From positions 1,798,001 to 1,862,000 of the forward strand of contig NZ_CP074346.1 of NCBI RefSeq assembly GCF_018343795.1: a stretch of 64,000 nucleotides of DNA. Direction: 5' to 3'. The first letter of the stretch is position 1. Every line of letters starts with the position of its first letter. Below are positions 12,769 to 45,901 of the stretch, piece by piece. The notes under the pieces are model-generated. The model was not told the origin of the DNA. It ran no database searches and saw only the letters and a list, made by a program, of their open reading frames with translations. This DNA is from Phocoenobacter atlanticus subsp. cyclopteri (GTDB lineage Bacteria > Pseudomonadota > Gammaproteobacteria > Enterobacterales > Pasteurellaceae). Made by a program: the position numbers and the translations under genes.

Positions 12769-15700
12769 CTATTGGGTAATTACACCAAGTTCATTGATGG
12801 TATGGCGATCTTGTCCTAGCAAGCCATCAACATCATTCGATCTGGGTTTAACAAGCACAAAACGTGCAATATATTCTTCCCAATTCTCTAAAATAACTTC
12901 TGCTAATGGACTCATTGTCTGCTCAAGATATTGAGAAAGTAAACTCTTTAAATATACTTGATGCCTTGTTAAATCAACGATAGATACCCCTTCCACTAAC
13001 TCACCATTGATACGCTCTTGAAGTCGATCATCCACATCCAATACGTAAGCAAAACCGCCAGTCATACCTGCACCAAAGTTAATACCCGTTTTACCTAGCA
13101 CACATACCACACCGCCAGTCATATATTCACAACCATTATCACCAATACCTTCAACAACAGCGGTTGCACCTGAGTTACGAACCGCAAAACGTTCTCCCAC
13201 TCGCCCTGAAGCATAGAGCGTTCCACCTGTCGCACCATATAAACAGGTATTCCCTGCAATGGTTGAATGCTCTGGTTGGAATGACACGCCAGTATGTGGA
13301 CGAATAACAATGCTTCCGCCTGCCATACCTTTACCGACATAATCGTTAGTATCGCCAATCAGAGAAATACTCACGCCACCAGATAACCACGCCCCTAAAC
13401 TTTGCCCCGCTGTTCCCACTAAATTAAGGTCAAAGCGTTGCTGTGGATTGCCTTTATTACCATATTTCTGTGCAATTTTGCCTGAAAGTGTCGCTCCAAT
13501 AGAACGATCTAAGTTGCTGACATCAAAGTTCATTTCTAAATGACAAGGTTCGTCAGATTGCAATACGCTCTCAGCTTCTTTCATTATCGCTTTATTGAGT
13601 AAGCCTTGATCCATCGGTGGATTGCTTTCAATACAATGTGTTGCCCCACCTTTTGGTACTTGCGGTTTATAAAGTAAACTCGTTAAATCAAGTTGTGAAT
13701 GCTTCGCCGTTTTACCTTCGATCACCGCCAAAAGATCTGTCCGCCCAATCAGATCCGTTAATTTTTCAACACCGAGTTGTGCCATAATTTCACGTACATC
13801 TTGGGCGATAAATTTAAAATAGTTCATCGCTTTTTCAGGTAAGCCGTGATAATGATTTTGACGTAACGTCTCATCCTGTGTGGCAATACCCGTCGCACAA
13901 TTATTTAAGTGACAAATACGCAAATAACGGCAACCTAATGCAATCATAGGACCTGTACCAAAACCAAAACTTTCTGCCCCTAAAATCGCTGCTTTAATCA
14001 CATCAAGACCAGTTTTTAAGCCACCATCAATTTGTAAACGGACTTTATGACGTAAATTATTTTCAACCAATGCCTGCTGAGCCTCTGCTAGACCAAGTTC
14101 CCACGGTGAACCCGCATATTTGACACTCGTTAGAGGGCTTGCACCTGTGCCACCGTCATACCCTGCAATAGTGATTAAATCTGCATAGGCTTTTGCCACG
14201 CCTGTTGCGATGGTGCCAACGCCTGGTAAGGAAACCAGTTTTACTGAAATTAATGCCGTTGGATTGATCTGTTTTAGATCAAAAATTAATTGTGCCAAAT
14301 CCTCAATAGAATAAATATCGTGATGAGGCGGGGGGGAAATTAAGGTTGAACCCGGTACGGAATAACGTAATTTTGCAATATAAGGCGTCACTTTATCCCC
14401 TGGAAGTTGCCCCCCTTCACCAGGTTTCGCCCCTTGTGCCACTTTAATTTGAATAACATCAGCACTCATTAAATAAGCAGGCGTTACCCCAAAACGACCT
14501 GAGGCAACTTGCTTAATACGAGACACTTTTTCCGTACCATAACGAGCAGTATCTTCCCCTCCTTCCCCTGAATTTGAGAAACCACCTAAACGGTTCATTG
14601 CAGTTGCTAATGCTTCGTGGGCTTCTGGGCTTAATGCTCCGATACTCATCGCCGCACTATCAAAGCGTTTATATAAATTTTCTGCGGGTTCAACCTGTTC
14701 AAGAGGAATAGGTTGTTGTGAGTCTATATTTAGATGTAGTAAATCTCGAATATTGGTGACAGGGCGGTTATTTACCACTTCGGTATATTTTTTATAAATC
14801 TGATAATCCCCTGAATTCAAGGCTTGTTGTAAATAATTCACTACATCAGGATTATAAGCGTGATATTCACCTTGTGGTTTATATTTAAGCTCTCCTCCCA
14901 TTGGTAATGGTTGACTAACACGCCACGCTAAGCGGTTGAGCGTTATATTATCTTGGTTTAAATGCTCAAAGGAAGCACCACCAATACGACAAGTAATACG
15001 AGGGAAACATAAATTGGTAATTTCTTTACTTAATCCTACCGCTTCAAAAAGATGAGCACAACGGTAAGAGGAGATAGTCGAAATACCCATTTTAGACATT
15101 ATTTTATACAGCCCTTTATCAATCCCTTTACGGAAATTCGCAATGACTTCTCGTAATGGTTTATTCATTGCACCTAGTTTGACTAGCTGCCCTAATGTTT
15201 CATAAGCTAAATAAGGGTAGACCGCTGTTGCTCCTAATCCAATTAACACAGCAAAGTGATGAGGGTTACGAGCTGAGCCTGTTTCCACAATAATATTGGC
15301 ATCACAACGTAAATTTTTCTCAACTAAACGTTGCTGTATCGCCCCCACTGACAATGCAGCAGGAATAGGTAAATTTGTTTTACTAATCAAACGATCAGAC
15401 ACCACAATTAAACCACAACCCTTTCTTGCGGCTTCTTCGGCTTGATCACACAAATCAACAATGGCACTTTTTAAATCGGTAATATCACGATTATAAGTCG
15501 CATCTAAAAATATATGTTTATACCACTGCTGAGGCAATGCCAATATTTGTTGCATATCAGAATAAACTAATATTGGCGATTTAAAATTCACTCTATGGGA
15601 GGTACTTTCTGTTTCAAAAAAGACACTCACCTCTTGCCCAATATTTGTGGCAAGGCTCATCACGTGGGCTTCTCGCAAAGGATCGATCGGTGGATTGGTA

Positions 15701-17235
15701 ACCTGTGCAAAATATTGACGAAAATAATCATAAATAACACGAGGCTTTTCAGACAATACCGCAAATGGGGTATCATCACCCATCGACCCTACTGGCTCTT
15801 GTCCATTCTCACCCAATACTTGAATGATATTTTCAAGCTCTTCTTTTGTATAACCAAACTGCTTTTGATAAGTGAGTAGTTGCTCAGGCGTAACCTCAAT
15901 ATCACCAACTTCAGTATCAGACACCTTTTCAAAAGGGGTTAAACGTAATACATTTTTCTCTAACCACTCTCGATATGGGTGGCGATCTTTAATTTCAGCA
16001 TCAATTTCTGCGGAATGAATTAAGCGACCATTATCAGTATCTATCACTAATAACTCACCCGGTCCGACACGCCCTTTTTCAATCACTTCATCAGGGGCAT
16101 AATCCCAAATCCCTACTTCACTGGCAATGGTAATTAACTTATCTTGCGTAATCACATAACGAGCAGGGCGTAAACCATTACGATCCAAATTACAGGCAAC
16201 GTGACGACCATCACTCAATACAATACCAGCAGGTCCGTCCCAAGGTTCCATATGCATTGCATTAAAATCATAGAAAGCTTTCAAATCCTCGTCCATATCA
16301 GGATTATGTTGCCACGCAGGTGGAATCAATAAACGCATTGCTCGAAATAAATCCATTCCCCCATTCACAAAGAGTTCTAACATATTATCTAACGAGCTGG
16401 AATCTGATCCTGTTTCATTGATAAATGGAGCAACGGTTTGTAAATCAGGAATTAATGGCGTGCTATATTTATATGCCCTTGCTCTTGCCCACGCACGGTT
16501 TCCTGAAATGGTATTGATTTCACCATTATGGGCTAGATAACGAAAAGGTTGTGCCAATTTCCATTGAGGTAGCGTATTGGTAGAAAAACGTTGATGAAAG
16601 AGACAAATTGCACTTTCCATACGTAAATCCGCCAAATCCAAATAAAATTTAGGCAAATCTTTAGGAATACATAACCCTTTGTAGATAATAATTTGAGAAG
16701 AGAGGCTACAAATATAAAAATCATTATGTTCAATGCGTTTTTCAATACGACGACGTGCCATATATAAACGGCGTTCCATATCCTTAATGCCCCAACCTGG
16801 AGGCACATTGATAAACACCTGTTTGATAGCGGGCAAGCTCGCTAAGGCAATTTAACCTAATATCGCTGGATTGATCGCCACATCACGCCACGCACTGATG
16901 GTTAAGGTTTCTTTGGTTAATTCTTGTTTAATAATCTGTGTATATTGCTCGATTAATTCAGGGTCTGCAGGAAAAAAAATCTGCCCCACCGCAAACTCTT
17001 TTGCCAATTTAAACCCTTGTTCTTCAGCAATAAAACGAAAAAAGCGTTTTGGCATTTGCAAGTGTAACCCACAGCCATCCCCTGTTTTTCCATCTGATAA
17101 CACCGCTCCACGATGTTGCATACGAGAGAGACCTAAAATGGCATTACGCACCACTTTATGGCTTTGTTCACCCTCAATATTTGCGATTAACCCAAACCCA
17201 CAGTTTTCTCGCACTTCATTTTTATCATATAACAT
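12769..17235 (-). pseudogene. gltB: Glutamate synthase large subunit, broken by an in-frame TAA
   Basis: The intact gene would encode the glutamine-amidotransferase and synthase subunit of about 1487 residues. The ATG at 17233-17235 follows a GGAAGGGG ribosome-binding site; a GTG five codons upstream is less likely. The nucleophile Cys12 (NCGFG, after a propeptide), the synthase FMN region and the GXGXG glutamate-synthase C-terminal repeats are all recognisable. After codon 127 (PAILG) a TAA at 16852-16854 replaces the Glu codon that E. coli has in LGEIALSSLP. The same frame then continues without further damage to 12769. One G-to-T change explains it. Re-initiation at a later codon would lack the catalytic cysteine. 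A sequencing error is the main alternative. Confidence 0.9.
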
Positions 17236-17524
17236 AACACCCCTTCCCACTTTTCTATTTCAAAAAGCCAATTTATTTTGATTTTTATATCAATTTATAT
17301 GAAATATAGAATTAATTTTATTATTTTAGATTAGAATTATCTATGATAATAATAAAAAATACTAATGATTGATAAGGTTAATTTGGTTAAAAAGGGATTT
17401 TTTTGTGATGAATATAGATTATTTGCTTTATTAAAGAATAAAAAACATACTATTTATGGTTAGCTAAATAAAAAATCGTCTTTCTAATTGATAAGATAAA
17501 GGGAACATTACTAATAAGAAAAAA

Positions 17525-30552: not shown

Positions 30553-31587
30553 TTGGGAAAACAACGAAAACTCACACAAAATCAAAAACGACGTATTCAA
30601 TCTAATCATCACAATAAAATTCATAAAAAAGAATTAGAATGGCAAGATGAAATGCTGGGTGAAACAAAAGATGGTTTGGTTATCGCCCGTCACGCTAAAC
30701 ATGCTGACGTAGAAAATTCAGATGGTGAGGTATGCCGTTGTAATCTACGTCGTACTCTAAAATCTGTGGTAGTCGGAGATAAAGTATCTTGGCGAAAAGG
30801 CAGTGAACAATTGCAAGGCATTAGTGGTGTGATCGAGGCAATTTATCCTCGTAAAAATGAACTTTCTCGCCCCGATTATTATGACGGAATCAAAGTAATG
30901 GCATCAAATATTGATCAAATTATTATTGTATCTGCCGTATTGCCTGAGTTGTCATTAAATATTATTGATCGCTATTTGGTGATTTGTGAAAATGCAAAAA
31001 TTCCAGCCTTAATTGTGTTAAATAAAATTGATTTATTAAATGATGATGAGCGACAAGAAGTTGAAAAACAACTCGATATCTATCGTAACATTGGTTATCA
31101 AAGCCTTTGTTTATCTGCTCAAACAGGAGAAGGAATGGAAAAATTAGACCGCTATCTTTCACAAGGTACGTCTATTTTTGTAGGACAATCTGGAGTCGGA
31201 AAATCAAGCTTAATCAACCAAATACTTCCAGAGAGCAATATACTCACTAATAAAGTGAGTACTAACTCAGGGTTAGGGCAACACACGACTACCGCTTCCT
31301 ATTTATATCAATTACCACAAGGTGGTAAACTGATTGATTCTCCAGGTATTCGTGAGTTTGGCTTATGGCATTTAGAGGTGGAGCAAATCACTCAAGGTTA
31401 TATAGAATTTCAATCTATTTTAGGTTTATGCAAATTCCGTGATTGTAAACACAACACCGATCCAAACTGTGCAATTAGAGAAGCCGTAGAAGAAGGCAAA
31501 ATTAACCGAACTCGCTTTGAAAATTATCATCGTTTAATTGAAAGTAGTAAAGAAGTGAAAGGACAACGCTATTTTAAAAACAATTAA
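30553..31587 (+). CDS. rsgA: Ribosome small-subunit GTPase RsgA
   Basis: RsgA checks late 30S maturation and releases RbfA using GTP. The protein has an OB domain (residues about 40-110) and a circularly permuted GTPase domain with the order [22 protein letters not shown] zinc site follows in [15 protein letters not shown] choose the TTG at 30553 ([11 protein letters not shown], 344 residues) because it matches the N-terminus of Haemophilus RsgA. A TTG four codons earlier is also open. No ATG is available until well inside the OB domain. Confidence 0.93.
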
Positions 31588-31645
31588 TTTTTATTTAAAA
31601 AAAGAGGATTACTTTACAAAAAAAATGTTGTAAAATCGCACAAAA

Positions 31646-31873
31646 TTTTTAATCGTATATGCTCAAAATATGGTTGAGCGTCTCTACAGTTAACCTTAAA
31701 TTAACTACTACGAAAATAACTCTTATTACAAAAAGTACTGAATTTAATTCTGTACTCCTTGCGTTGTTTTCGTAAAACTATGGTATTTTGTAATGAGAAT
31801 AAAGCACTTGTATAAATCACAAAATAATTTATCTGTATTATTCAGCCTAGATGCGTGCATCTAGGCTTTTTTT
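31646..31873 (+). promoter_or_regulatory. Guanine-type purine riboswitch with downstream terminator
   Basis: The aptamer spans about 31653-31713. P1 is TCGTA/TACGA, and P2 is GCTCAA/TTGAGC with loop AATATGG. J2/3 is GTCTCTAC. P3 is AGTTAA/TTAACT with loop CCTTAAA. J3/1 is ACT. The two loops are the consensus kissing loops. The J3/1 base matching position 74 of the xpt riboswitch is C (31708), which specifies guanine or hypoxanthine rather than adenine. The 3' P1 strand (31709-31720) can instead pair over 12 bases with 31763-31774. A strong terminator (AGCCTAGATGC/GCATCTAGGCT, 31844-31867, then T6) lies 36 bases before purL. Ligand-dependent shut-off of the purine operon is inferred. Confidence 0.92.
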
Positions 31874-31908
31874 GTTTCTAACATTTTTAAAATGACTTTG
31901 AGGATAAG

Positions 31909-34900
31909 ATGACAAATCTACGTTTTTTCATTGAAAAGCAGTCTGGTTTTGATATAGAGGCGAAGCAGTTATGTGCTAAATTTAAACAAGAATTACATAT
32001 TCAAGGATTAGAATCCTTAAAGGTAATCAATGGTTATGATATTTTTGATCTAGAAGCAAGTGTCCAAGAGATTGCTAAAATTAAATATCGAATTTTATCA
32101 GAACTTGTTAGTGATAAAGTTATTGATGAATTAGAATTAACAAATAAAACGTACTTTGCTGTTGAATGCTTAGATGGGCAATTCGACCAACGAGCAGACT
32201 CTGCTTTACAATGTATTGAAATTATTTTATCAAAAAAACTTAATATTACCGTTAAATCTTTTAAAATTATTATTCTTGAAGGAAGTGTTAACCTCGCTGA
32301 TCTCAGTAAAATTAAACAATTCTATATAAACCCTGTTGATAGCAAAGAGAAAGATTTATCTCTCTTTGCTAAAACACCCATTACTATTAATGATAGCGTA
32401 GTTATCTATGATAACTTCCTCAGTCTTAATCATAACCAACTCGATCAATTAAAAGATGAACTAAATCTTGCTATGGGCTACGAAGATTTACATTCTATTC
32501 ATCAACATTATCAACAACTAGGTAGAAATCCTACTGAAACTGAAATTAAAGTTTTTGATACCTATTGGTCAGATCATTGTCGCCATACCACCTTTGAAAC
32601 ACAAATTAGACATATCAGCTTTCCTGATTCGCCTTTTGGACAACAAATACAGTCAGCATTCAATCATTATTTAGACATTAAATCAAAAGTAGCTGCAAAT
32701 AAGTCTCAGTGTCTAATGGATATGGCAACAGTGATGGCAAAATATTTACATAAAACTGGATATTTAGATGATTTAGAAATTTCTGATGAAAACAATGCCT
32801 GTTCTGTCTATTTGGATGTGGAAACTAGCGATTTTTCAGGGGAAAAACACCTTGAAAAATGGTTGTTGATGTTCAAAAATGAAACTCACAATCACCCAAC
32901 AGAAATTGAACCGTTTGGTGGTGCCTCTACTTGTTTAGGCGGTGCTATTCGAGATCCATTATCTGGGCGAGCTTATGTTTATCAGGCAATTCGCGTGACA
33001 GGTTCAGCTAATCCACTGGAAAAAATCGAAGATACTCTTGCTGGTAAATTAAGCCAACAAAAAATTACCACTGAAGCTGCTGAAGGTTATTCTTCCTATG
33101 GTAACCAAATTGGTATTGCCACCTCATTGGTGTCAGAATTGTATCACGAAGGTTATAAAGCTAAACGAATGGAAGTAGGTGCAGTGGTTGCTGCTGCTCC
33201 TATCAAAAATGTAATCAGGGCTAAACCACAACCTAATGATCATATTATTTTACTGGGTGGCAAGACAGGACGTGATGGCTGTGGTGGAGCATCAGGTTCA
33301 TCTAAAGAACATAATGATAATTCTTTGCTACTTTGCGGAGCAGAGGTACAAAAAGGTAACGCTCTAGAAGAGCGTAAAATTCAACGCTTATTCAGAAATG
33401 CTAATGCTACTAGATTAATTAAAAAGTGTAATGACTTTGGTGCAGGTGGGGTTTGCGTTGCGATTGGTGAGCTTGCCGATGGTGTTAAAGTTAATCTTGA
33501 TTTAATTCCTGTAAAATATGAAGGATTAAGTGGTACTGAACTCGCTATTTCTGAATCACAAGAACGTATGGCAGTGATTGTTTCTGAAAAAGATAGTCAA
33601 ACCTTTTTGCAATATGCCCAAGAAGAAAATTTATTAGCAACAGTAGTTGGTAAGGTAACCGATGATAATCGTTTATTGCTGACGTGGAAAGGTACACATA
33701 TTGTCGATATTCAACGTGAGTTTTTAAACACTAATGGTGTGAGACAACAAATTGATATTACCGTTACTAATATTGATAGACAACAACCTTTTAAGCGGGT
33801 AGTTTCAGGTGATAATTTACAAAAACAGTGGGAAGAAAATTTATGTGATTTAAACGTCACCTCACAAAAAGGTTTGAGTGAAATGTTTGATTCTACTATT
33901 GGGGCAGGAACAGTATTAATGCCATTTGGTGGACGTTATCAAATGACTCCAATAGATGTTTCTGTTGCTAAATTACCAGTGCTTAATAAAGAAACACAAA
34001 CTGTTTCTGCCATTACTTGGGGTTGTAATCCTTATCTATTATCGTGGTCACCCTATCACGGAGCAATGTATGCCGTCATTGATTCTCTTGCTAAATTGGT
34101 TTCAGTCGGTATTGATTATAAGAAAGCTCGCTTATCATTCCAAGAATATTTCCAAAAACTAGGGCAGGACAGTGTCACTTGGTCAAAACCCTTTTTAGCG
34201 CTGCTAGGGGCAATCAAGGCTCAAAGTGATTTTCACGTCGCGGCTATTGGTGGTAAAGACTCGATGAGTGGTACATTTAACGATTTACACGTACCACCAA
34301 CTTTTATTTCTTTTGCAGTAAGTTCTGGTAATATTAATAACATTATTTCTCCTGAATTTAAGCAAATTGGTTCATATATTTATCTACTGGATAATCCATT
34401 AGATGATGAAGGACACTATAATGCCCATATCCTTAAAAATAATTTTGAAACAGTGCTGACAGGTATTGAAGAAGGCACTATATTATCAGCAATGACAGTA
34501 AAACACGGTGGTATTGCGGAAGCTTTGGCAAAAATGAGTTTCGGTAATCGTATCGGTGTTAGACTCAACAACAATAACACTGATTATTTTACTATTAAAC
34601 CAGCCAGCATCATTGTTGAAAGTCAAAAAATAATCAGCCAACCTAATGCAGTTTTATTAGGGCAAAGTATTAATGAGTTTTCTGTTGTTATTGATAACGA
34701 ACATATTAATCTAACTACTTTGCAAGAAGTATGGCTAGGAAAACTAGCAAAAATTTTTCCAGTAAAAACGGATGAACAACCGGCTATTCTGACAGATTTA
34801 TCTGTGACAACAAATAAAATAGCACATTCAATACAAGGTGTTAAGGTTGCAAAACCTAGAGTATTAATCGCCACTTTCCCTGGTAGTAATTCAGAATACG

Positions 34901-35646
34901 ATATGTATAACGCATTTAATCGCAATGGAGGATGTGCGGAAATACTATTATTTAGAAATATTACCTCAAATTATATTCGTGATTCTATTAATCAACTGTG
35001 CCATAAACTTAAAACAGCACAAATCTTTGTATTACCTGGCGGTTTTAGTGCAGGTGATGAGCCAGATGGTTCAGGTAAATTTATTGCTGCTATCTTACAA
35101 AACCCACAATTAAAAGAGAGTATTAATGAATTTCTAGCAAGAGATGGCTTGGTTTTAGGCATCTGTAATGGCTTCCAAGCTCTTGTTAAATCAGGCTTGT
35201 TACCAAATGGTGATATCGGTCAAATTACGCCACAATCGCCAACGCTAACTTTTAATAAGATCGGTCGCCATATTTCTCAAATAGTAACAACAAAAATAGT
35301 AAATAACCAATCACCTTGGTTATCTTCTTTTGCTGTGGGACAAACTTTTAATATTCCCGTTTCTCATGGTGAAGGACGTTTTTATGCAAGCGAAGATACT
35401 CTACAACAACTCATTGCCAATGGGCAAATTGCGACACAATATGTTGATTTATCTAATAGAGCAACTAATGAATTTATTTATAACCCTAATGGCTCAAGCC
35501 TAGCCATAGAGGGTATTATGTCAGCTGATGGCAGAATTTTAGGCAAAATGGGGCATTCCGAGCGTTATTCTGAGGGAACATTCAAAAATATTTCTGGTGA
35601 TAATGACCAAAATATTTTTGCAAATGGGGTTAAGTATTTTGGGTAG
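31909..35646 (+). CDS. purL: Phosphoribosylformylglycinamidine synthase, long single-chain form of Firmicutes type
   Basis: PurL converts FGAR, glutamine and ATP to FGAM, step four of purine synthesis. The 1245-residue chain contains an N-terminal PurS-like part, two AIR-synthase-like halves (DTYWSDHCRHTTFET near 222; MFKNETHNHPTEIEPFGGA near 322; IGGKDSMSGTF near 784) and a C-terminal glutaminase (LPGGFSAGDEPDGS, nucleophile Cys in GICNGFQ, HGEGRF). From memory, it aligns closely with the streptococcal enzyme of about 1240 residues, and not with the N-terminus of the roughly 1300-residue Haemophilus and E. coli PurL. This points to horizontal origin. It is the first gene of the operon. Confidence 0.95.
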   Translation: MTNLRFFIEKQSGFDIEAKQLCAKFKQELHIQGLESLKVINGYDIFDLEASVQEIAKIKYRILSELVSDKVIDELELTNKTYFAVECLDGQFDQRADSALQCIEIILSKKLNITVKSFKIIILEGSVNLADLSKIKQFYINPVDSKEKDLSLFAKTPITINDSVVIYDNFLSLNHNQLDQLKDELNLAMGYEDLHSIHQHYQQLGRNPTETEIKVFDTYWSDHCRHTTFETQIRHISFPDSPFGQQIQSAFNHYLDIKSKVAANKSQCLMDMATVMAKYLHKTGYLDDLEISDENNACSVYLDVETSDFSGEKHLEKWLLMFKNETHNHPTEIEPFGGASTCLGGAIRDPLSGRAYVYQAIRVTGSANPLEKIEDTLAGKLSQQKITTEAAEGYSSYGNQIGIATSLVSELYHEGYKAKRMEVGAVVAAAPIKNVIRAKPQPNDHIILLGGKTGRDGCGGASGSSKEHNDNSLLLCGAEVQKGNALEERKIQRLFRNANATRLIKKCNDFGAGGVCVAIGELADGVKVNLDLIPVKYEGLSGTELAISESQERMAVIVSEKDSQTFLQYAQEENLLATVVGKVTDDNRLLLTWKGTHIVDIQREFLNTNGVRQQIDITVTNIDRQQPFKRVVSGDNLQKQWEENLCDLNVTSQKGLSEMFDSTIGAGTVLMPFGGRYQMTPIDVSVAKLPVLNKETQTVSAITWGCNPYLLSWSPYHGAMYAVIDSLAKLVSVGIDYKKARLSFQEYFQKLGQDSVTWSKPFLALLGAIKAQSDFHVAAIGGKDSMSGTFNDLHVPPTFISFAVSSGNINNIISPEFKQIGSYIYLLDNPLDDEGHYNAHILKNNFETVLTGIEEGTILSAMTVKHGGIAEALAKMSFGNRIGVRLNNNNTDYFTIKPASIIVESQKIISQPNAVLLGQSINEFSVVIDNEHINLTTLQEVWLGKLAKIFPVKTDEQPAILTDLSVTTNKIAHSIQGVKVAKPRVLIATFPGSNSEYDMYNAFNRNGGCAEILLFRNITSNYIRDSINQLCHKLKTAQIFVLPGGFSAGDEPDGSGKFIAAILQNPQLKESINEFLARDGLVLGICNGFQALVKSGLLPNGDIGQITPQSPTLTFNKIGRHISQIVTTKIVNNQSPWLSSFAVGQTFNIPVSHGEGRFYASEDTLQQLIANGQIATQYVDLSNRATNEFIYNPNGSSLAIEGIMSADGRILGKMGHSERYSEGTFKNISGDNDQNIFANGVKYFG

Positions 35647-35650
35647 AGTT

Positions 35651-36390
35651 ATGATGTGGAAAAAATTAACCGAATACCCTAATGAAAAAGTTATTGATAA
35701 GGAATTTAATAAGATTATTTATTGGGAAATACAAGACGGAAAAATCGTGCATCAAAAACGCATTTTGCGTAGTGCTGATATTGAAACATTTGAGATTTAT
35801 CAAAGTAGTGATACTGTTTTTATTGCACGAGATAAAAATAATATTTATCACGCTTGGTCTAAATTATCAAAGGTTGATAGAGATAGTTTTGTAGCGTTAG
35901 GCAATGGTTATTGGAAAGACAAAAATGTTGCTTACATTGAAAATGAAACTTCACTTACACAATTAAAAGGGCTTGACGCACAAGATTTTTGCGTTTTAGG
36001 TAATGGTTTTGCGTATGACAAAAACTTTGCTTATTACTTTGGCAGAGTAATAAAAAGTTGTAGCGACCCACAAACTTTAACGCTTGTAAATGCAGATGAT
36101 TACTTTGCAATGGATAGTGAAAATATCTTTTATGAAAGCGGTGTATTAAAAGGTGCAGATAAAGAAACTTGGAAATTGTTAGGCAATGGATTTTCACGAG
36201 ATAAAAAGAGCGTATTTTTTGCAATAAAAAATTACCACGAGTTGATATAAACACTTGGAAACATCTCTACCGAGCGTATTCAAAAGATAAAAATAATGTC
36301 TATTGTATGAACTTTGTAGAAAAAGACAAATTGCCACAAGATTGGAATGTGGGAAAAGTTAAAGAATATTACAAATCACAAAAATTTTAA
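35651..36390 (+). pseudogene. DKNYY-family protein, frameshifted at a run of A residues
   Basis: The function is unknown. The frame starting at ATG 35651 encodes repeats with DK-N-Y/F motifs (GYWKDKNVAYIE, GFAYDKNFAYYF, GFSRDKKSVFF), typical of DKNYY proteins, and stops at 36250. The reading frame shifted by one base at the A6 run 36226-36231 continues the same pattern without a break (RVDINTWKHLYRAYSKDKNNVYC, to the stop at 36390). One missing A therefore explains the split. The intact protein would be about 246 residues. It is squeezed between purL (4 bases) and purE (17 bases), so it rides in the purine operon. A homopolymer sequencing error or slippage-based variation are alternatives to true decay. 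Confidence 0.8.
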
Positions 36391-36407: not shown

Positions 36408-36893
36408 ATGAAAGTAGGTATTATATTCGGTAGTCAATCCGATTTAGAAGTAATGAAAGGTGCATCAGATTGTTTAAAACAATTTGGCATAGAGTATTCA
36501 GCACATATTTTATCAGCACATCGAGCGCCTGAATTATTGGCAGAAATACTGACGAAATTTGAACAAGAAAACTATGGTGTGATTATCGCTGGTGCTGGTT
36601 TATCGGCACATTTACCGGGTGTAGTGGCATCAAAAACCACCTTGCCAGTTATCGGCGTGCCAATTAATGCTGGAAAATCGGCTATCGGTAATGGCATAGA
36701 CGCATTGTATTCCATTGTGCAAATGCCAAAATCTATTCCTGTGGCAAGTGTCGGCATTAATAATTCTTTTAATGCAGGTATGTTAGCAGTACAAATGCTT
36801 GCTATCGGTAATGCTGATTTGCAAGCCAAATTAGCCAATTTTAGAACGAATATGAAAGAAGGTTTTAAAGATACTATTAATGTAGCATTGTAA
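36408..36893 (+). CDS. purE: N5-carboxyaminoimidazole ribonucleotide mutase
   Basis: PurE forms CAIR, the sixth step of purine synthesis. The 161-residue octamer-forming protein has GSQSDLEVM (residues 8-16), the catalytic histidine in SAHRAPE (residues 41-47) and GAGLSAHLPGVVASKT. These are class I features, like Clostridium and other Firmicutes enzymes. Class I enzymes normally need PurK to make N5-CAIR. No purK is present beside it or elsewhere in the window. The ribosome-binding site ACGGAG precedes the start. Confidence 0.94.
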   Translation: MKVGIIFGSQSDLEVMKGASDCLKQFGIEYSAHILSAHRAPELLAEILTKFEQENYGVIIAGAGLSAHLPGVVASKTTLPVIGVPINAGKSAIGNGIDALYSIVQMPKSIPVASVGINNSFNAGMLAVQMLAIGNADLQAKLANFRTNMKEGFKDTINVAL

Positions 36894-36901
36894 TTTTATC
36901 C

Positions 36902-36929
36902 GTAGAGACAGGGCATGCCCTATCTCTAC
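36902..36929 (+). repeat. GTAG-headed hairpin repeat in the purine operon
   Basis: GTAG, then AGACAGGG-CATG-CCCTATCT (one C-A mismatch), then CTAC. It belongs to the same family as 29108-29131. It lies in the 81-base gap between purE and purC, the longest gap in the operon, where it could pause or protect the transcript. Confidence 0.65.
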
Positions 36930-36974
36930 AATAAATTCATCTTAACGAACACGATTAACCAAAAGAGCAAAAAA

Positions 36975-37682
36975 ATGAAAACAGAATTTATTTACGAAGG
37001 CAAAGCCAAACAAATTTATGCAACTGATAACACTGAGCAAGTGATTATTTTTTACAAAGATGATGCCACTGCTGGCAATGGTGCAAAAAAAGGAACAATC
37101 AAAGATAAAGGTGTACTCAATAACCAAATTACTACAATAATTTTTAAATTACTGGAAGAAAATGGTATCAAAACGCACTTTATTGAAAAGTTAAGTGATA
37201 GAGAACAACTGTGCCAAAAAGTACAAATTTTCCCATTAGAAGTGATTGTCCGCAACCTTATTGCTGGTTCAATGGCAAAACGAGTGGGTATTGCCGAAGG
37301 TACAAAACCAAATAATACTATTTTTGAAATTTGCTATAAAAATGATGAATATGGCGATCCATTGATTAATGATCACCACGCTGTCGCATTAGGCTTAGCG
37401 ACTTATGATGAATTGGCAAGTATTTATAATATTACTGCTAAGATTAATGATTTGTTAAAAGCCAAATTTGACAAACTTGGTATTACATTAGTCGATTTTA
37501 AAATTGAGTTTGGTAAAAATGCAAAGGGTGATATTTTACTTGCTGATGAAATTACGCCAGATACTTGTCGTTTCTGGGATAAAGAAACAGGTAAAAAATT
37601 GGATAAAGACCGTTTCCGTCAAGATTTAGGCGATATTGAAGATGCCTATTTGGAAATATGTAAGCGTTTGGCAAATAATTAA
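36975..37682 (+). CDS. purC: SAICAR synthetase
   Basis: PurC joins aspartate to CAIR. I take the ATG at 36975 ([17 protein letters not shown], 235 residues). The upstream in-frame ATG at 36915 would add 20 residues not found in relatives and would start inside the hairpin repeat. Motifs include YEGKAKQIY (residues 7-15), [12 protein letters not shown] and [12 protein letters not shown]. The sequence resembles the Firmicutes enzymes. It lies 14 bases before the isochorismatase-like gene. Confidence 0.95.
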
Positions 37683-37696
37683 AAAAGGAGTAAAAA

Positions 37697-38239
37697 ATGA
37701 ATAAAGCACTTATTATTATTGATATTCAAAATGACTATTTTCCGAATGGAAAAATAGAATTATTTGAAAGTGAAAAAGCAAGTATTAATGCGAAAAAAAT
37801 ATTAGATAAATTTAGAGAAAAAAATCAACTTGTTGTTCATATTAAACATTTATCTACACGACCTGATGCTAGTTTCTTTCTACCTGATACTCTGGGAGCA
37901 GAAATACATAATTCCGTAAAACCACAACCTAATGAAAAAGTATTTATTAAACATTTTCCCAATAGTTTTAGAGATACAGAGTTATTTGAATATCTAAAAA
38001 ATAATGATATAGAAAATTTAGTAATTCTAGGAATGATGACGCATATGTGCGTTGATGCAACTGTAAGGGCTGGTAAAGATTTAGGCTTTAAGATTAAAGT
38101 AATAGGCGATGCTTGTGCAACGAAAAATTTAGAAATATTCGGAAAAAAAGTCGATGCAGAAAATGTACAAAAATCGTTTTTATCAGCATTAAACTATTTT
38201 TATGCAGAAGTAATTAATACTAATGATTTTGATATATAA
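37697..38239 (+). CDS. Isochorismatase-like cysteine hydrolase
   Basis: The substrate is unknown. The 180-residue protein has the complete catalytic set of the family: Asp9 (IDIQND), Lys85 (FIKHFPNSF) and Cys118 (MMTHMCVD). Members hydrolyse isochorismate, nicotinamide, ureidoglycolate-type or similar amides. The setting inside a purine operon hints at a purine or NAD-related role, but that is inference only. It is separated from purC by 14 bases and from purM by 20, with a GGAG ribosome-binding site. Confidence 0.85.
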   Translation: MNKALIIIDIQNDYFPNGKIELFESEKASINAKKILDKFREKNQLVVHIKHLSTRPDASFFLPDTLGAEIHNSVKPQPNEKVFIKHFPNSFRDTELFEYLKNNDIENLVILGMMTHMCVDATVRAGKDLGFKIKVIGDACATKNLEIFGKKVDAENVQKSFLSALNYFYAEVINTNDFDI

Positions 38240-38259: not shown

Positions 38260-39276
38260 ATGACCACAATCACATACAAACAAGCAGGCGTTGATAAAGA
38301 AGAAGGCTATAAAGCCGTTGAACTGATGAAGAAAAAAGTGCAACAAACACATAATTCATCAGTACTAACCAATTTGGGTAGTTTTGGGGCGATGTACGCC
38401 TTAGGAAACTATAAAGAACCCATTTTAGTCTCAGGCACCGATGGCGTAGGCACAAAGTTAGAAATTGCTTTAACACAGAAAAAATACGATACGGTCGGTA
38501 TTGATGCGGTGGCGATGTGTGTTAATGATATTTTATGTCACGGTGCAAAACCACTGTTCTTTTTAGATTATTTGGCGTGTGGCAAATTAGAGGCTGAAGT
38601 TGCCGCTGAATTAGTATCAGGCATTTCTGATGGCTGTTTACAAGCTGGAGCAGCTTTAATTGGTGGAGAAACCGCTGAAATGCCAGGATTTTATCAAATT
38701 GGTGATTACGATATTGCTGGATTTTGTGTTGGTGTCGTAGAAAAATCACAACTGATTAATGGTGATAAAGTACGTGCTGGTGATAGTATTATTGCCTTAC
38801 CTTCGAGTGGTTTTCATAGTAATGGTTTTTCTCTGCTACGCAAAATTTTTAGCGATTATAATGAAGTTATTGAAGGCAAAAGTGTAAGTGATTGGCTACT
38901 AACTCCAACCAAAATCTATGTGAAGCCGATTTTACAACTATTAGAAAAGTTTGATATTCACGCAATGGCACATATTACTGGCGGTGGTTTGATTGAAAAT
39001 CTACCTCGTTGTATGAATAAAGACTTATCACCTGTAGTATTCAAAAATAACGTCACTCCGCTATGGCAATCACTACCACTCTTTGCCGAAGTGCAACAAC
39101 GAGGCAATATCAGTGAAGATGAGATGTTTGGCACTTTTAATATGGGTGTAGGTTTTACCCTTGTGGTTAATCCTAATATGGTTGATGATGTTGTTGATTA
39201 TTTAGCCAGCATTAGCGAACCTGCTTATGTAATTGGACATATTGAACAAGGGGATAATCAATTGTGTCTAAAATAA
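38260..39276 (+). CDS. purM: Phosphoribosylformylglycinamidine cyclo-ligase (AIR synthetase)
   Basis: PurM closes the imidazole ring to give AIR, step five of the pathway. The 338-residue protein has GTDGVGTKLEIA (residues about 59-70), DAVAMCVNDILCHGAKPLFFLDY (77-99), GGETAEMPGFY and HITGGGLIENLPR. The length is normal. Its stop lies 13 bases inside the start of purN, so the two are translationally coupled. Confidence 0.96.
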   Translation: MTTITYKQAGVDKEEGYKAVELMKKKVQQTHNSSVLTNLGSFGAMYALGNYKEPILVSGTDGVGTKLEIALTQKKYDTVGIDAVAMCVNDILCHGAKPLFFLDYLACGKLEAEVAAELVSGISDGCLQAGAALIGGETAEMPGFYQIGDYDIAGFCVGVVEKSQLINGDKVRAGDSIIALPSSGFHSNGFSLLRKIFSDYNEVIEGKSVSDWLLTPTKIYVKPILQLLEKFDIHAMAHITGGGLIENLPRCMNKDLSPVVFKNNVTPLWQSLPLFAEVQQRGNISEDEMFGTFNMGVGFTLVVNPNMVDDVVDYLASISEPAYVIGHIEQGDNQLCLK

Positions 39277-39839
39277 CATCTAAAGATTCTATCAAAATTG
39301 CTGTTTTAGTCTCTGGTGGTGGTAGCAATATGATGCAATTAATTAAACATAAAATTGCAATCGATTGCGTTGTTGCAGATAGAAGTTGTAAAGCTACCAC
39401 TCTCGCTGAACAATACCATATCACTACTTTTCAAGTAACAAGAGAAAATTGTTCACAGCAAATTTGTGAAATTTTAGCTACACGCAAAATTAATTTAGTG
39501 GTACTGGCTGGATTTTTATCTATTTTAGATAAAGACCTCACTGACTGCTATACCGTCATTAATATCCACCCCTCGTTACTACCTAAATATGGTGGACGTG
39601 GAATGTATGGAATAAATGTGCATAAAGCCGTATTGGCAAGTGGCGATACAATCAGTGGTTGTACGGTGCATTATGTTGATGCAGGCGTGGACACAGGCGA
39701 TATTATTGCCCAAAGTGAAGTGGATATTAGCAGTGCAAAAACGGCTGATGAAATTGCAAAATCGGTATTGCAAAAAGAGTGGGAACTGTTGCCGAGAGTG
39801 GTTAAAGAATTTTGTACAAAAACTCTACGAAAATCGTGA
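39264..39839 (+). CDS. purN: Phosphoribosylglycinamide formyltransferase
   Basis: PurN transfers a formyl group from 10-formyl-THF to GAR, step three. The 191-residue product has VSGGGSNM (phosphate loop), LAGFLSIL, the catalytic NIHPSLLPKYGG (Asn, His) and VDAGVDTGDII (Asp). The start is a GTG (39264) within purM. No ATG fits before the first conserved motif. The motif arrangement KYGGRGMYG is of the short Firmicutes/Bacteroidetes style. Confidence 0.95.
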   Translation: MSKITSKDSIKIAVLVSGGGSNMMQLIKHKIAIDCVVADRSCKATTLAEQYHITTFQVTRENCSQQICEILATRKINLVVLAGFLSILDKDLTDCYTVINIHPSLLPKYGGRGMYGINVHKAVLASGDTISGCTVHYVDAGVDTGDIIAQSEVDISSAKTADEIAKSVLQKEWELLPRVVKEFCTKTLRKS

Positions 39840-39894: not shown

Positions 39895-40386
39895 ATGAGA
39901 AAAGTAATAATTTTAGGAAGTTCAAGAAAAAATGGTGGCACACGAAAGGTTATTGATGAGTTAAGAAAATTTTCTGATTATGATGTGATTGATTTATTAG
40001 ATTACAACATTTCATACTACGACTATGAGCACCATAATCAAAATGATGATTTTCTCAAAATCATTGAAAATATCACTGAAAATTATGATGTTTTTGTCTT
40101 TGCAACGCCTGTATATTGGTATGCAATGTCGGCACAAATGAAAGTATTTTTTGACCGCACTAGCGATTTAATCACTATTGCAAAAGATATAGGACGAAAA
40201 TTGCGCGGCAAAAAAACAGCAGTAATTACTTCATCTATCGGTAACCATTTAGGCGATGATTTTTTCTTACCATTTAATGAAACATTTAGATATTTTGGCA
40301 CGGAACACATAGCGAATTTACATACTGTTGCAGATGAATTAGATATGAATGCACTGAAAGATTTTGATACTGCACTTAATCAATAA
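39895..40386 (+). CDS. NADPH-dependent FMN reductase-like (flavodoxin fold) protein
   Basis: The role is unknown. The 163-residue protein has the N-terminal phosphate loop GSSRKNGGT (residues 8-16) and the flavin-contact motif [19 protein letters not shown] (residues about 64-82) of NADPH-dependent FMN reductases and related oxidoreductases. It lies between purN and purH in the same direction (gaps 55 and 32 bases), so it is probably cotranscribed. Its link to purine metabolism is not obvious. Confidence 0.85.
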
Positions 40387-40418: not shown

Positions 40419-41939
40419 ATGAAAAAAAGAGCATTACTATCGGTTTTTGATAAAGACGGTATCGTAGAATTAGCCGAGTGTCTTATCAAACATAATGTAG
40501 AAATTATTTCTACTGGTGGCACTTATAGGCATTTGCAAGCAAGTGGCGTTCCTGTCCTTGAAGTCAGTCAACTCATTGATTCTGATGAAATGCTAGATGG
40601 TCGAGTAAAAACGCTCCACCCATATATTCACGGTGGTATTTTGGCAATACGTGACAATGCAGAACATATGCAAACTTTAAGAGAAAAAAATATCGCCACC
40701 ATTGATTTTGTCATTGTGAATCTTTATCCATTCTTTGATAAAGTGAAAGAAAATTTACCTTTTGATGATACTATTGAATTTATTGATATTGGTGGTCCAA
40801 CAATGCTCCGCAGTGCTGCCAAGTCATTTAAAGATGTAGTAGTCATTACTGATAAAAAAGATTATCAAATCGTTATTGATGAACTAAATAACAGTCAAAC
40901 TATTAGCTATGAAACAAGGAAATTTTTTGCAAAAAAAGTATTTAATCTGACCGCTTGTTATGATGCTGCTATTTCCCAATTCCTACTTGATGATGACTGC
41001 CCTGAATTTTTAACGATTTCTTATCAAAAAGAAAGTGAAATGCGTTATGGCGAAAATTCACATCAAAAAGCGGTTTACTATGTTGATAAAATGAATGATG
41101 GAGCAATGAAAAACTTTAGCCAGCTAAACGGTAAAGCCTTATCATTTAATAATATTCGAGATATGGATTTAGCGTGGAAAGTCGTCTGTGAATTTAATGA
41201 AACTGAAGACATTGCTTGTTGTGCAGTTAAGCACTCAACACCTTGTGGTGTTGCCATTGCTGATAGTGTTGAAACAGCTTATAGCAAAGCCTACGAATGC
41301 GACCCCGTATCAATTTTTGGTGGCATTGTTGCCTTTAACAGTGAAGTTGATGAAAGTACGGCAAAAAAATTAAACGATATTTTCCTAGAAATTGTTATTG
41401 CTCCTAGCTTTAGCGATGACGCCCTTACTGTTCTTAAACAAAAGAAAAACTTAAGAGTCATCAAATGCAATCAAAAGCCACAAGACAGTAAAGAATATAT
41501 CAAAGTAGATGGTGGTTTGTTAGTACAAGACGTAAATAATGCCCTACTAGATAATGCTAAAGTGGTCACAAATAAACAACCAAATGATATTGAGAATAAA
41601 GACTTATTATTTGCTTTAAAAGTGGTTAAATATGTGAAATCAAATGCAATAGTGATTGCCAAAGATGGACAAACACTTGGAATTGGTGGCGGTGAAGTCA
41701 GTCGTATTTGGGCAACAGAAAAAGCCATTGAAAGAGCTAATACCTTTGATAAAACCAATATGGTGCTTGCCTCTGATGCATTTTTCCCATTTAGTGATGT
41801 GGTTGAATTAGTATCAGAAAATGCTATTACTGCAATTATTCAACCGGGTGGCTCTATTCGTGATCAAGATTCTATTGATGTCTGCAATAAAAAAGATATT
41901 GCGATGGTATTTAGTCAATTAAGACATTTTAAACATTAA
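40419..41939 (+). CDS. purH: Bifunctional AICAR transformylase / IMP cyclohydrolase
   Basis: PurH does the last two steps to IMP. The 506-residue protein has an N-terminal cyclohydrolase domain ([31 protein letters not shown]) and a C-terminal transformylase domain from about residue 200 ([17 protein letters not shown] with catalytic Lys-His, FGGIVAFN). It is shorter than the roughly 529-residue E. coli enzyme and resembles Firmicutes forms. A full extended uptake signal is embedded at 40922-40958 and read as part of NLTACYD. Confidence 0.96.
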
Positions 41940-41949
41940 GGTAACCTAA

Positions 41950-43227
41950 ATGAAAATATTAATTATAGGAGCAGGTGGTCGTGAACACGCTATCGCTTGG
42001 AAGATAGCTCAAAATCCACGAGTAACAAAGATTTACGCAGCAGTGGGTAATGCCTATGATACTTTATTACCTAATTGCGAAAATGTAAACTTAACAACAA
42101 GTCAAGAAATCCTTACTTTTGCTAAAGAACAACAAATAGATTTAACAATTGTTGGTAGTGAGGAATTATTAGTAGCAGGTATCGTTGATTTATTTCAGCA
42201 AAATAACTTAACTATTTTTGGACCTGATAAAAAAGCAGCTAAATTAGAAGGTTCTAAATCTTTCGCTAAGCAATTTATGCAGAAGTATGGTGTGAAAACA
42301 GCAAAATCACAAAGTTTTAATGATCCTAAACTTGCTCTAGATTATATCAAATTTATGCCATATCCCCTTGTAGTTAAAGCCAGTGGTTTAGCAGCAGGTA
42401 AGGGCGTGGTTATCTGTCAAACACATACAGAGGCTGAAAAAACCATTGATGATATGATGGTTAAAAAAGTTTTCGCCAATGCTGGTGATACCATTATTAT
42501 CGAACAATTTCTAGAAGGTGTGGAAATTTCTATTTTATCAGTCACTGATGGTAAAACAATTTTACCTTTTATCTCTGCCAAAGATCACAAAAAAATTGGT
42601 GAGGGAGATACAGGTTTAAATACTGGCGGAATGGGGGTTATTGCCCCCAATCCACATTACACCCCAGAAGTAAAACAACAATTCATTACTGATATTCTGC
42701 AACCAACATTAAAAGGGTTACAGCAAGAAAAAATGGACTTTGCAGGCGTCATTTTCTTTGGATTAATGGTGTGTGCTGACGGCGTTTATTTACTCGAATA
42801 CAATATGCGTTTTGGTGATCCTGAAACGCAAGCCGTTTTACCACTTTTAGAAAGTGATCTACTGGAGATTATTCAAAAATCCTTAGATAAACAGTTAGAA
42901 AGTATCACTCTACAATGGCATAACGCTAGCACTTGTTGTGTCGTCCTTACTGCAGGGGGCTACCCTACCAAATATAAGAAAGGGGACAAAATTTTAGGCA
43001 TAGCAGAAAGCATTGAAAAAAAGGATTGTCAAATTTTCTTCGCAGGTGTTCAAGAAAAAGAACACCTCTACTACACAAACGGTGGAAGGGTGCTTAATAT
43101 CGTAGGAATAGCGAGTAGCCTAGAACAGGCAAAAGAAAAAGCATATCAAAACGTGGCTAACATTACTTTTAGAGAAATGTATTATCGTAATGATATTGGT
43201 CAATTACTTTCAGATAAAGGGATATAA
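41950..43227 (+). CDS. purD: Phosphoribosylamine-glycine ligase
   Basis: PurD makes GAR from phosphoribosylamine, glycine and ATP, step two. The 425-residue ATP-grasp protein has [12 protein letters not shown] at the N-terminus, the phosphate-binding [15 protein letters not shown] and the metal site [13 protein letters not shown]. It follows purH by 10 bases and precedes purF by 2. Confidence 0.96.
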
Positions 43228-43229
43228 AA

Positions 43230-44675
43230 ATGTGTGGTGTTGTTGGTGTTGTTGTTGCTCAAAATTATGTAAATCAAATTATCTTTGATGCCCTTACGGT
43301 GTTACAACACCGTGGGCAAGATGCTGCTGGAATAGTTACTGGCGATAATGGTAAATTTTATATGCGAAAAGAGAATGGATTAGTCAGAGAGGTTATTCGT
43401 ACTCGCCATATGAAAAAATTAACAGGAAATATTGGTATTGGACACGTTCGATACCCAACTGCAGGTACAAATAATGTGGCAGAAGCTCAACCTTTCTACG
43501 TTAACGCACCCTACGGTATCGCACTAGCTCATAATGGTAATTTGACAAATACCGCTCAATTAATTGAAGAAATTCATAGTAATGATCTGCGGCACCTTAA
43601 TACCTATTCTGATTCAGAAATATTATTAAATGTTTTTGCTCATGAGCTACAGATACAAGGAGCAAAAACCCCTACTGCAAAAGATATCTTTCAAGCAATT
43701 ACTCAAGTTCATCAACGAATTCGTGGTGGATATGCAGTTGTAACACTTATTACTGGCTACGGTATTGTCGCATTTCGAGATCCTTATGGTATACGACCTC
43801 TCGTCTATGGAAGCCGCCAAACAGATAAAGGAACGGAGTATATGGTTGCATCCGAAAGTGCAGCTTTAAGTATCTGTGGTTTTAAGTTAGAACGAGATAT
43901 TAAAGCAGGAGAAGCTATTTTTATTAGTACACAAGGAGAATGTTTTACTCAAATTTGTGTAGACCATCCACAAACTACTCCTTGCTTATTTGAATATATT
44001 TATTTATCCCGTCCTGACTCTATTTTGGACGGTGTCTCGGTTTATCATTCTCGTATGGCACAAGGTATCAAATTAGCTCAAAAATTACAGCGCGAATGGT
44101 CACATCACGATATTGATGTCATTATTCCTATACCAGAAACAAGTGGAACAGCCGCCATTGAAATGGCTCGGTATTTAAACTTACCTTGTCGATTTGGTTT
44201 TGTAAAAAACCATTATATTGGACGTACTTTTATTATGCCTAACCAAGCACAACGACAACAATCTGTGCGACGTAAACTCAATCCTATTCGTAGTGAATTT
44301 GAGGGGAAAAATGTCTTACTAGTAGATGATTCTATTGTACGTGGAACAACATCAAAGCAAATTATCAAAATGGCTCGAGAGATGGGAGCAAAAAAGGTTT
44401 ATTTTGCTTCAGCTGCACCAGCAGTTCGTTATCCTAATGTCTATGGCATTGATATGCCCTTAGCCACAGAATTGATTGGTTATAACAGAGATGATGAGGC
44501 TATTGGTAAGCAAATAGGTGCTGATGGAATTATATTTCAAGATTTAACTGATCTAAAAACATTAATTATGGAACTCAATCCTAAACTAACACAATTTGAA
44601 ACAAGTATATTTGATGGTCATTATATAACTAATGAAAAAGATAACCCTAATCTACAAGAAATTCTAAAGGAGTGA
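43230..44675 (+). CDS. purF: Amidophosphoribosyltransferase
   Basis: PurF commits PRPP to the purine pathway using glutamine. The 481-residue enzyme starts MCGVVG, with the nucleophile Cys2 exposed after Met removal. There is no propeptide, and the [4Fe-4S] cysteines of the Bacillus-type enzyme are not evident. The PRPP loop [14 protein letters not shown] is intact. From memory it aligns closely with E. coli PurF ([29 protein letters not shown]), unlike the Firmicutes-like upstream genes. In Haemophilus purF sits elsewhere. It ends the operon. Confidence 0.95.
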
Positions 44676-44838: not shown

Positions 44839-45901
44839 GATTCAAGTTTGAAGTGCAACGCACCCAAATCTAGATTTTACCTCAAGAGGTGTTTGATAGC
44901 CTAATACTTTTCTTGGTCTATTGTTTAAATTATCTTCAATAGCTTTAATCTCATCATCAGTTACTTTATCTAAAGTGGCTGATTTTGGTAAAAATTGCCG
45001 AATAAGCCCATTCGTATTTTCATTTGTTCCACGCTCCCAAGAGTGATATGGTTTTGCAAAATAAATCGTTGTCTTTAATGACTTTGCAATCTCTTCGTGT
45101 TGTGCAAACTCTTTACCATTATCAAAGGTAATACTTAATGGATTTTCACCTAAAAGCATTTCAATACAAGCTTCTTTAACTCGTTCAGCCTTACGGTTAG
45201 GTAAACATTTTATTTTAGTTTCTCGACTTACCCTATCAACCAAGGTAACTAGCACTCCACGATGATGTTTACCTACAACGGTATCACCTTCATAATCCCC
45301 TAAGCGTTCTCTATTATCAACAGAAGCAGGACGTTCTGTAATATCAATTCTATTTGCTATTTGACCACGTCTATCTTGATTAGCGTAACCTCGTTTTCTG
45401 TAGGTTTTCTGACAACGTAGGTGCTGATACAGCTTTCCTCCTGCTTGTTTATCCGCATAAATATATTGATAGATTCTTTCGTGACTAGGCACATTAGTCC
45501 ACCCAAGAAAACGTAGTCTCCCTGTAATTTGTTCAGGAGAGTATTTCCTTGATAATAACTCCTCTATATATGCCCAGCCAAAATCACTAATTGTTTGAGC
45601 ATTATTTGCTTTTCTAGAGACAGCGAGGTTATTTGCTTGTTTAGGGCGGTAACCTCGTTGTCCAGTATTACGTTTTAGTTCACGGTATATCGTTGCTTTG
45701 TGAACGCCAATGATTCGAGAAATTTCACTTTTTGAGATTCCTGTTTTCATTAGAGCAGAAATTTGATATCTTTGTTCTTGTGTAAGATGTTTGTAGTGTT
45801 TCATAACGTTTTGATATGTGGTAGTTGAAAATCGAAGTGCAACACTGCACATCTTACATTTCAATTACTATTTTTCAAACGTTGCACTTCTTTTTTGAAT
45901 C
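44839..45901 (-). mobile_element. IS30-family insertion sequence
   Basis: The element is 1063 bases, bounded by 22-base imperfect terminal inverted repeats (44839-44860 and 45880-45901; 18 of 22 match, sharing GATTCAA and GAAGTGCAACG). It holds a single transposase gene on the minus strand. I see no convincing short target duplication at the ends. It lies between the end of the purine operon and the peroxiredoxin-glutaredoxin gene, next to a short relic of an ISAs1 end. Confidence 0.9.
44842..45804 (-). CDS. IS30-family transposase
   Basis: The transposase cuts and joins the ends of the surrounding element. From the ATG at 45802-45804 (MKHYKHLTQEQRYQISALMK) it has 320 residues. The N-terminal helix-turn-helix (KSEISRIIGVHKATIYRELKRN) is clear. 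The DDE core follows: D in GDYEGDTVVG, D in ITFDNGKEF, and E in HSWERGTNENTNGLIRQFLPK. The frame is intact to the stop, and the last codons run into the inverted repeat. An ATG 20 codons upstream is open but adds a non-conserved tail. Confidence 0.95.
   Translation of the reverse strand: MKHYKHLTQEQRYQISALMKTGISKSEISRIIGVHKATIYRELKRNTGQRGYRPKQANNLAVSRKANNAQTISDFGWAYIEELLSRKYSPEQITGRLRFLGWTNVPSHERIYQYIYADKQAGGKLYQHLRCQKTYRKRGYANQDRRGQIANRIDITERPASVDNRERLGDYEGDTVVGKHHRGVLVTLVDRVSRETKIKCLPNRKAERVKEACIEMLLGENPLSITFDNGKEFAQHEEIAKSLKTTIYFAKPYHSWERGTNENTNGLIRQFLPKSATLDKVTDDEIKAIEDNLNNRPRKVLGYQTPLEVKSRFGCVALQT

Follow-up and report, generated by a model that had tools for sequence, protein, structure and literature searches.

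A guanine-class riboswitch probably controls a horizontally acquired, mosaic purine operon in Phocoenobacter atlanticus subsp. cyclopteri, acting through a terminator that would shut the operon off when guanine is available and allow its expression when guanine is scarce. The window analysed here is the whole 64,000-nucleotide stretch of contig NZ_CP074346.1 (positions 1,798,001 to 1,862,000), and all features are numbered from its first letter and lie on the forward strand unless stated otherwise. The leader under study stands between rsgA and purL, both on this strand, rsgA ending at 31587 and purL starting at 31909.

The aptamer and its ligand-contacting bases

Using the Rfam purine riboswitch model RF00167 we found a match at 31633-31730 (65.2 bits, cut-off 37; E 4e-9 in the 64-kb window) that covers the aptamer over the full model, 1-102, with an E-value of 2.1e-11 when the search was confined to the 341-nt leader. 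Besides RF00167, no Rfam family scored above its own cut-off when the leader was searched at E ≤1. The preliminary description of this stretch had named such a covariance search as the check on its proposal of a guanine-class purine riboswitch, and the search returned a significant match with C at position 74.

The kissing-loop three-way junction of the family is present, with a core at 31653-31713 (Rfam alignment and folding) formed of P1 (31653-31657/31709-31713, 5 bp), P2 (31661-31666/31674-31679, 6 bp) and P3 (31688-31693/31701-31706, 6 bp). The kissing loops are L2, AATATGG (31667-31673; AAUAUGG in RNA), and L3, CCTTAAA (31694-31700; CCUUAAA in RNA), and J2/3 ends in TCTAC at 31687; these elements, and the C in J3/1, are present as had been claimed. 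We mapped positions 22, 51 and 74 of the xpt numbering onto the leader from the Rfam alignment, which places U22 at 31658, U51 at 31685 and the ligand-pairing base C74, in J3/1, at 31708, where a T would denote the adenine class. U22, U51 and C74 are the guanine contacts of the class (PMC9295807), and all three are present in the leader. By all sequence criteria tested the element is a guanine riboswitch, with binding and discrimination against adenine predicted, and this RNA switch very probably senses guanine.

Some details of the aptamer were compared with 92 parsed aptamers from a sample of the order. In 91 of these P2 has one pair more than here, only that at locus L248 having equal length, and the leader has U24 rather than A24, T24 being ordinary (21 of 35 parsed C74-type aptamers). 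The P3 span, read by hand, is 19. A P1 of only 5 bp counts against our main explanation. A guanine-class variant with another ligand, such as 2'-deoxyguanosine or xanthine, would share this fold, as PMC9295807 describes for such variants. However, U51 and C74 are kept, the J2-3 and J3-1 regions have no insertion, unlike the xanthine-II description in the same text, and the gene context is purine synthesis, and we consider such a variant highly improbable.

Exclusive helices and a terminator in the leader

Just upstream of the core, TAAAAT at 31631-31636 (TACAAT in both sibling genomes) could conceivably be a -10 element, as read by eye; no good -35 was found for it, and a promoter scan did not list it. 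At the other end of the leader, and outside the folded stretch, a Shine-Dalgarno-like GAGG for purL was read by eye at 31900-31903.

The preliminary description had pointed to a 12-base pairing of the P1 3' strand with 31763-31774, and folding and shuffling bear it out. This pairing, here called I3 (31709-31774; 31709-31720 with 31763-31774), is predicted for the ligand-free RNA, where it breaks P1. It is 92% complementary over 12 nt, with one G-U, and its duplex energy of -13.0 compares with -4.5 (sd 1.3) in dinucleotide shuffles of the downstream stretch, none of 2000 being as good; with a fixed 20-nt window around the P1 3' strand, 4 of 2000 shuffles paired as well. A counter-helix, I1 (31721-31798; 31721-31733 with 31786-31798), excludes I3 and was likewise unmatched in 2000 shuffles, for a segment that was picked after being seen. 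Both helices enclose a small hairpin at 31734-31756 in the predicted structures.

When a transcript ending at 31774 was folded without constraint, the probability of I3 was 0.97 and that of P1 was 0.00, while with P1 enforced I1 reached 0.94-0.96 (0.96 at 31800) and I3 fell to 0.00. Unconstrained folding was near balance at 31800 (I3 0.51 versus I1 0.46) and again dominated by I3 at 31843 (0.92). I3 and I1 are two mutually exclusive long pairings, beyond chance. A short open reading frame of 11 codons, ATG to TAA, lies at 31780-31815, past the alternative helix and before the terminator, and has no clear ribosome-binding site.

An intrinsic terminator stands between the aptamer and purL at 31844-31873, with a stem of 10-11 bp (31844-31867; -14.9 kcal/mol) and a T run at 31868-31873. 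The terminator scan found this one site against a mean of 0.1 in shuffles, and none of 2000 shuffles had a perfect 10-bp stem containing five or more G or C, so that the strong terminator of the preliminary description is confirmed. Intrinsic termination is the common output of the purine riboswitch class.

We infer the ligand, the direction of switching and the relay of I3 or I1 to the terminator as follows. When guanine or hypoxanthine is plentiful, the ligand would sit in the three-way junction and hold P1, so that I1 would form and I3 be blocked; with I3 blocked, RNA polymerase would stop at 31844-31873 and the operon would be off. With purines in short supply, I3 would capture the P1 3' strand and transcription would continue into purL. 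On-to-off termination is the most likely mechanism, with a putative relay step to the terminator. Of the on-to-off transcription switch put forward earlier, the exclusive states and the strong terminator are supported as anatomy; control of the terminator by the pairing is putative.

Folding of the full leader at equilibrium showed no dependence of the terminator on P1, its probability being 0.90 both with and without P1. The sole state-dependent upstream partner of the terminator 5' arm is 31778-31784, which pairs with 31845-31850. We considered this as a candidate antiterminator, with a probability of 0.62 versus 0.00 at nucleotide 31855, but dropped it as evidence after a permutation null, in which 69 of 300 permuted arms reached the 0.18 difference between states, i.e. 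within chance. As controls we folded three clostridial leaders, and one (L075) gave the expected difference in terminator probability (0.05 versus 0.97), while the other two (L007 and L039) showed no equilibrium difference (0.96/0.96 and 1.00/1.00, respectively). With two of the three controls behaving in this way, equilibrium folding is weak evidence in either direction and cannot decide the matter. As read by eye, the P1 3' strand of L075 and L007 is able to pair inside the terminator hairpin, whereas in the window leader its partner lies outside the terminator, 70 nt before it. At the counterpart of the clostridial terminator site there is a hairpin (31756-31783), which we examined as a possible ancestral terminator and rejected, as at only -2.9 kcal/mol it is not a terminator.

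That weak hairpin, the independence of the terminator from P1 and the chance-level antiterminator would also suit a relic or constitutive attenuator, in which the aptamer is intact, the clostridial platform has decayed and the terminator lets a fixed fraction of transcripts through. However, I3 and I1 lie far beyond chance and form a clean two-state system that decay is not expected to keep, and we regard this explanation as unlikely. A smaller chance still goes to another output, such as Rho, pausing or transcript stability, with the terminator serving the upstream rsgA or setting a ceiling. The equal terminator probabilities and the antiterminator result are equally in keeping with such an output, as is the lack of any terminator-like site between the end of rsgA and the aptamer, but nothing positive speaks for it and it would depart from the output usual for the class. 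On-to-off termination remains our preferred reading.

A mosaic operon and its history within the genus

Profile matches also uphold the earlier identification of a purine operon behind the riboswitch, in the order purL-purE-purC-purM-purN-purH-purD-purF plus three cargo genes. The first gene, purL, encodes a 1245-aa FGAM synthase of the TIGR01857 type (31909-35646; 1916.6 bits, cut-off 1057) and is followed by purE (36408-36893, TIGR01162), purC (36915-37682, TIGR00081), purM (38260-39276, TIGR00878), purN (39264-39839; TIGR00639 at 132.4 bits, below the cut-off of 150.1), purH (40419-41939, NF002049 and TIGR00355), purD (41950-43227, TIGR00877) and purF (43230-44675, TIGR01134). The cargo genes encode a DKNYY-family protein (35597-36250, PF13644), whose listed start overlaps purL and whose true start is probably internal, an isochorismatase-fold hydrolase (37697-38239, PF00857) and an NADPH-dependent FMN reductase-like protein (39895-40386, PF03358). 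An IS30 transposase gene follows the operon at 44842-45864.

The operon seems to be largely foreign and mosaic, acquired for the most part from Clostridium-like or Brachyspira-like bacteria, and this is what the preliminary description, though right about the riboswitch and the operon, had missed. PurL is closest to Brachyspira (56%) and to Clostridium and other Bacillota (53%) among the matches listed, in a search of named genomes that may leave out near kin. Within the family, 134 of 140 genomes have a PurL match, but only the three carriers of the riboswitch reach 96-100%, and the best-scoring match from a non-carrier is 38% over 243 residues; the usual PurL of the family is absent from the window's genome. 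Likewise, PurH is 62% identical to Clostridium versus 45-48% to the family outside the genus, and PurD 56% versus 39-45%, with 41 genomes of the family and order searched for each. For PurM the contrast is smaller (59% to a Bacillota locus versus 50-55% in the family), and it is not clearly foreign by this comparison. Among the loci found through PurL, the nearest PurE, PurC and PurN, from Clostridium or other Bacillota, are 70%, 67% and 42% identical, respectively. In trees that took in only such loci, PurL joins Brachyspira (support 100/96, 34 rows) and PurH joins Clostridium (support 100/99, 19 rows).

PurF differs from these. It is 83% identical to that of a congeneric genome (G113), 59-62% to 15 genomes from other families of the order, and within its own family 55-59% to 19 genomes and 39% to one (G032), and is by identity of proteobacterial type, with a slight lean towards other families of the order over its own. 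Foreign PurL, PurH and PurD together with a proteobacterial PurF point to at least two sources for the operon, and no one donor accounts for both PurL and PurH. Brachyspira was examined as donor of the whole block and set aside, PurL supporting it and PurH pointing to Clostridium; the two Brachyspira loci used in this test (L004 and L005) have no other pur genes and no purine riboswitch in their flanks (10 kb on each side, and 10 and 3.8 kb, respectively). Since the operon appears to have been acquired from distant bacteria, the pathway probably brought its RNA control along in place of the usual repressor protein, and we infer a joint transfer of riboswitch and operon.

The riboswitch is the only RF00167 match in its own genome, and 3 of the 140 family genomes have one, all of the window's genus: its own, G112 of the same species and G113 of the same genus. 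In G112 and G113 the pur block follows rsgA as in the window. A fourth genome of the genus, that of a sister species (G114), had no purine riboswitch in the family survey and no operon at the site, rsgA being followed directly by rsxA/rnfA (NF003481, 346.2 bits, cut-off 240). No PurL match was found in six of the 140 family genomes, and the three of these that the searches for PurF, PurH, PurM and PurD covered (G114, G013 and G137) have no full-length match to any of the four either. With all five enzymes missing, the pathway looks lost in G114, and the carriers' ancestor may have lost it too.

The operon is evidently being reshuffled within the genus, to judge from comparison of the carriers. 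All three cargo genes are missing from the G112 and G113 operons, and the purE DNA is only about 70% identical to the sibling copies. G113 and the window share 72% identity at the start of rsgA but 98-100% from the middle of rsgA through the leader into purL, which marks a recombination block. The near-identity of the sibling leaders comes from recent exchange and is not evidence of constraint, and their few differences say little. In G113 the purL reading frame ends early (L158 1777-5409; 1210 aa, with a different C-terminus), purD and purF read as one 909-aa frame (L158 10297-13026), and yidC follows the operon (L158 13125-14750), so that the genus varies in what lies to the right of the operon. 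In G112 two transposase frames follow the operon (L157 13125-15539), one of them close to the ISAs1-type transposase of the window (60232-61338). Elsewhere in the family, G032 carries purD, purH and purM with its quite different PurF (39%) in one 6-kb cluster (G032:C1:319253-325499), with no purine riboswitch in the family survey under its stricter filters, which may mean that a clustered pur operon was gained there independently.

Two further observations concern the rest of the window. The sequence ACAAGCGGT is present in eight copies versus 0.27 expected, and fits the Actinobacillus pleuropneumoniae-type uptake signal of Pasteurellaceae. The glutamate synthase gene seems disrupted close to its 5' end: the large-subunit reading frame (12769-17250, reverse strand) matches NF008730 over profile positions 137-1488 with its N-terminus missing, and the N-terminus is in a separate 132-aa frame just upstream.

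PurR, related riboswitches and comparison with known systems

The genome has a PurR orthologue (L115; NF007979, 551.9 bits, cut-off 501). Five places in the genome have a perfect PUR box, where rough arithmetic (11 fixed bases, 2.3 Mb, both strands) gives about one by chance. Three precede PF00860 permease genes (L159, L161 and L163), one is found within the coding sequence of purB, some 185 nt past its start (L160), and one has no recognised purine gene nearby (L162); E. coli purB has much the same intragenic box. With up to one mismatch allowed there were 35 and 38 matches, and the reversed pattern gave 22 and 31, an excess so small that only the five perfect places were used. No PUR box was found in the purL leader at up to two mismatches. 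With PurR kept, boxes elsewhere and none in the leader, the operon seems to be outside PurR control. A LacI-family regulator gene is split into two reading frames of 147 and 191 aa near 449700 of G000:C1 (L114).

A fuller history can be offered tentatively, as possible rather than probable: the lineage lost de novo purine synthesis and regained it as a foreign operon with its riboswitch, the expression platform then being remodelled into a 70-nt relay, which left two sensors. The P1 3' strand would have left the terminator, two long exclusive helices would pass the decision 70 nt downstream, and two unrelated sensors would serve one pathway, the riboswitch acting on the operon and PurR on purB and the permeases.

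Purine riboswitches were found in 59 of 394 genomes in the order sample (96 matches, own included) and in 1 of 369 in the class sample, only the window's own, in a sample that holds few genomes of this order. The counts of the family, order and class surveys are minimum values, as the stricter filters used there miss some weak matches; the surveys agree with the rarity in Gammaproteobacteria that had been noted before. Of the 95 other order matches, 35 have C at position 74 and 60 have T, 92 calls coming from pattern parsing and three (L218, L257 and L251) being read separately, L251 by eye. Adenosine deaminase follows 58 of the 60 T74 type (57 by motif and L251 by eye; identity confirmed by NCBIfam on the two tested), L259 precedes a reading frame with no NCBIfam match, and L166 is excluded from the 94 matches with the gene read. 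Of the C74 type, 34 of 35 precede permease-like proteins (21 by motif and 13 by eye; PF00860 confirmed on the two tested) and L248 precedes a NupC-like transporter (TIGR00804, 433.3 bits, just under the cut-off of 442).

The window riboswitch thus belongs to the same Rfam family as the others of the order and shares C74 with 35 of 95, but whereas those sit on salvage or uptake genes, adenosine deaminase (T74) or permeases (C74), with no de novo purine gene behind any of the 94 read, the window's sits on de novo synthesis. The other genomes of the order with purine riboswitches are presumably Shewanella and Vibrio. Adenosine deaminase and purine transporter contexts are published for Shewanella (PMC3223726), and two other studies suggest that sporadic purine riboswitches in Gammaproteobacteria arose by transfer (PMC2258182, PMC3766115). 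Titles and the beginnings of abstracts yielded no report of the present case, which the distribution study of Singh and Sengupta could contain.

In Pasteurellaceae the same pathway is under PurR control, as in Haemophilus influenzae, where purH is strongly induced without PurR (PMC3739930). PurR is present here too, but the window leader has no PUR box and is predicted to be under RNA control instead. The arrangement resembles that of Bacillus subtilis, where a guanine riboswitch precedes the pur (purE) operon (PMC10912719). In both, a guanine-class aptamer precedes a whole de novo purine operon that guanine is expected to turn off. However, B. subtilis is a Firmicute whose operon is also under an unrelated PurR, whereas the window's genome has a LacI-type PurR and its operon is headed by purL.

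In Clostridium, 3 of 14 pur loci scanned have a guanine riboswitch, directly before purL in L075 and between purL and purE in L013 and L015. The L075 locus (Clostridium sp. UBA3947) shares with the window the order riboswitch-purL-purE-purC...purM-purN...purD, C74 and an equal P3 span. Its P1 is 10 bp, with a 3' strand that can pair inside the terminator, whereas the window has a P1 of 5 bp and a terminator 70 nt past the alternative helix; its purF lies between purC and purM, whereas that of the window is of another type and stands at the operon end.

This is a known kind of riboswitch, and what is unusual are its host and its history, the host being unusual in that the riboswitch apparently came with the foreign operon. 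As the sister species lacks the operon at the site, its acquisition can be assigned to a single genus, and how riboswitch and PurR share control is open to testing. The locus is a clear natural case in which a riboswitch and its operon apparently crossed between phyla together, the relatives of the new host controlling the same genes by a protein repressor.
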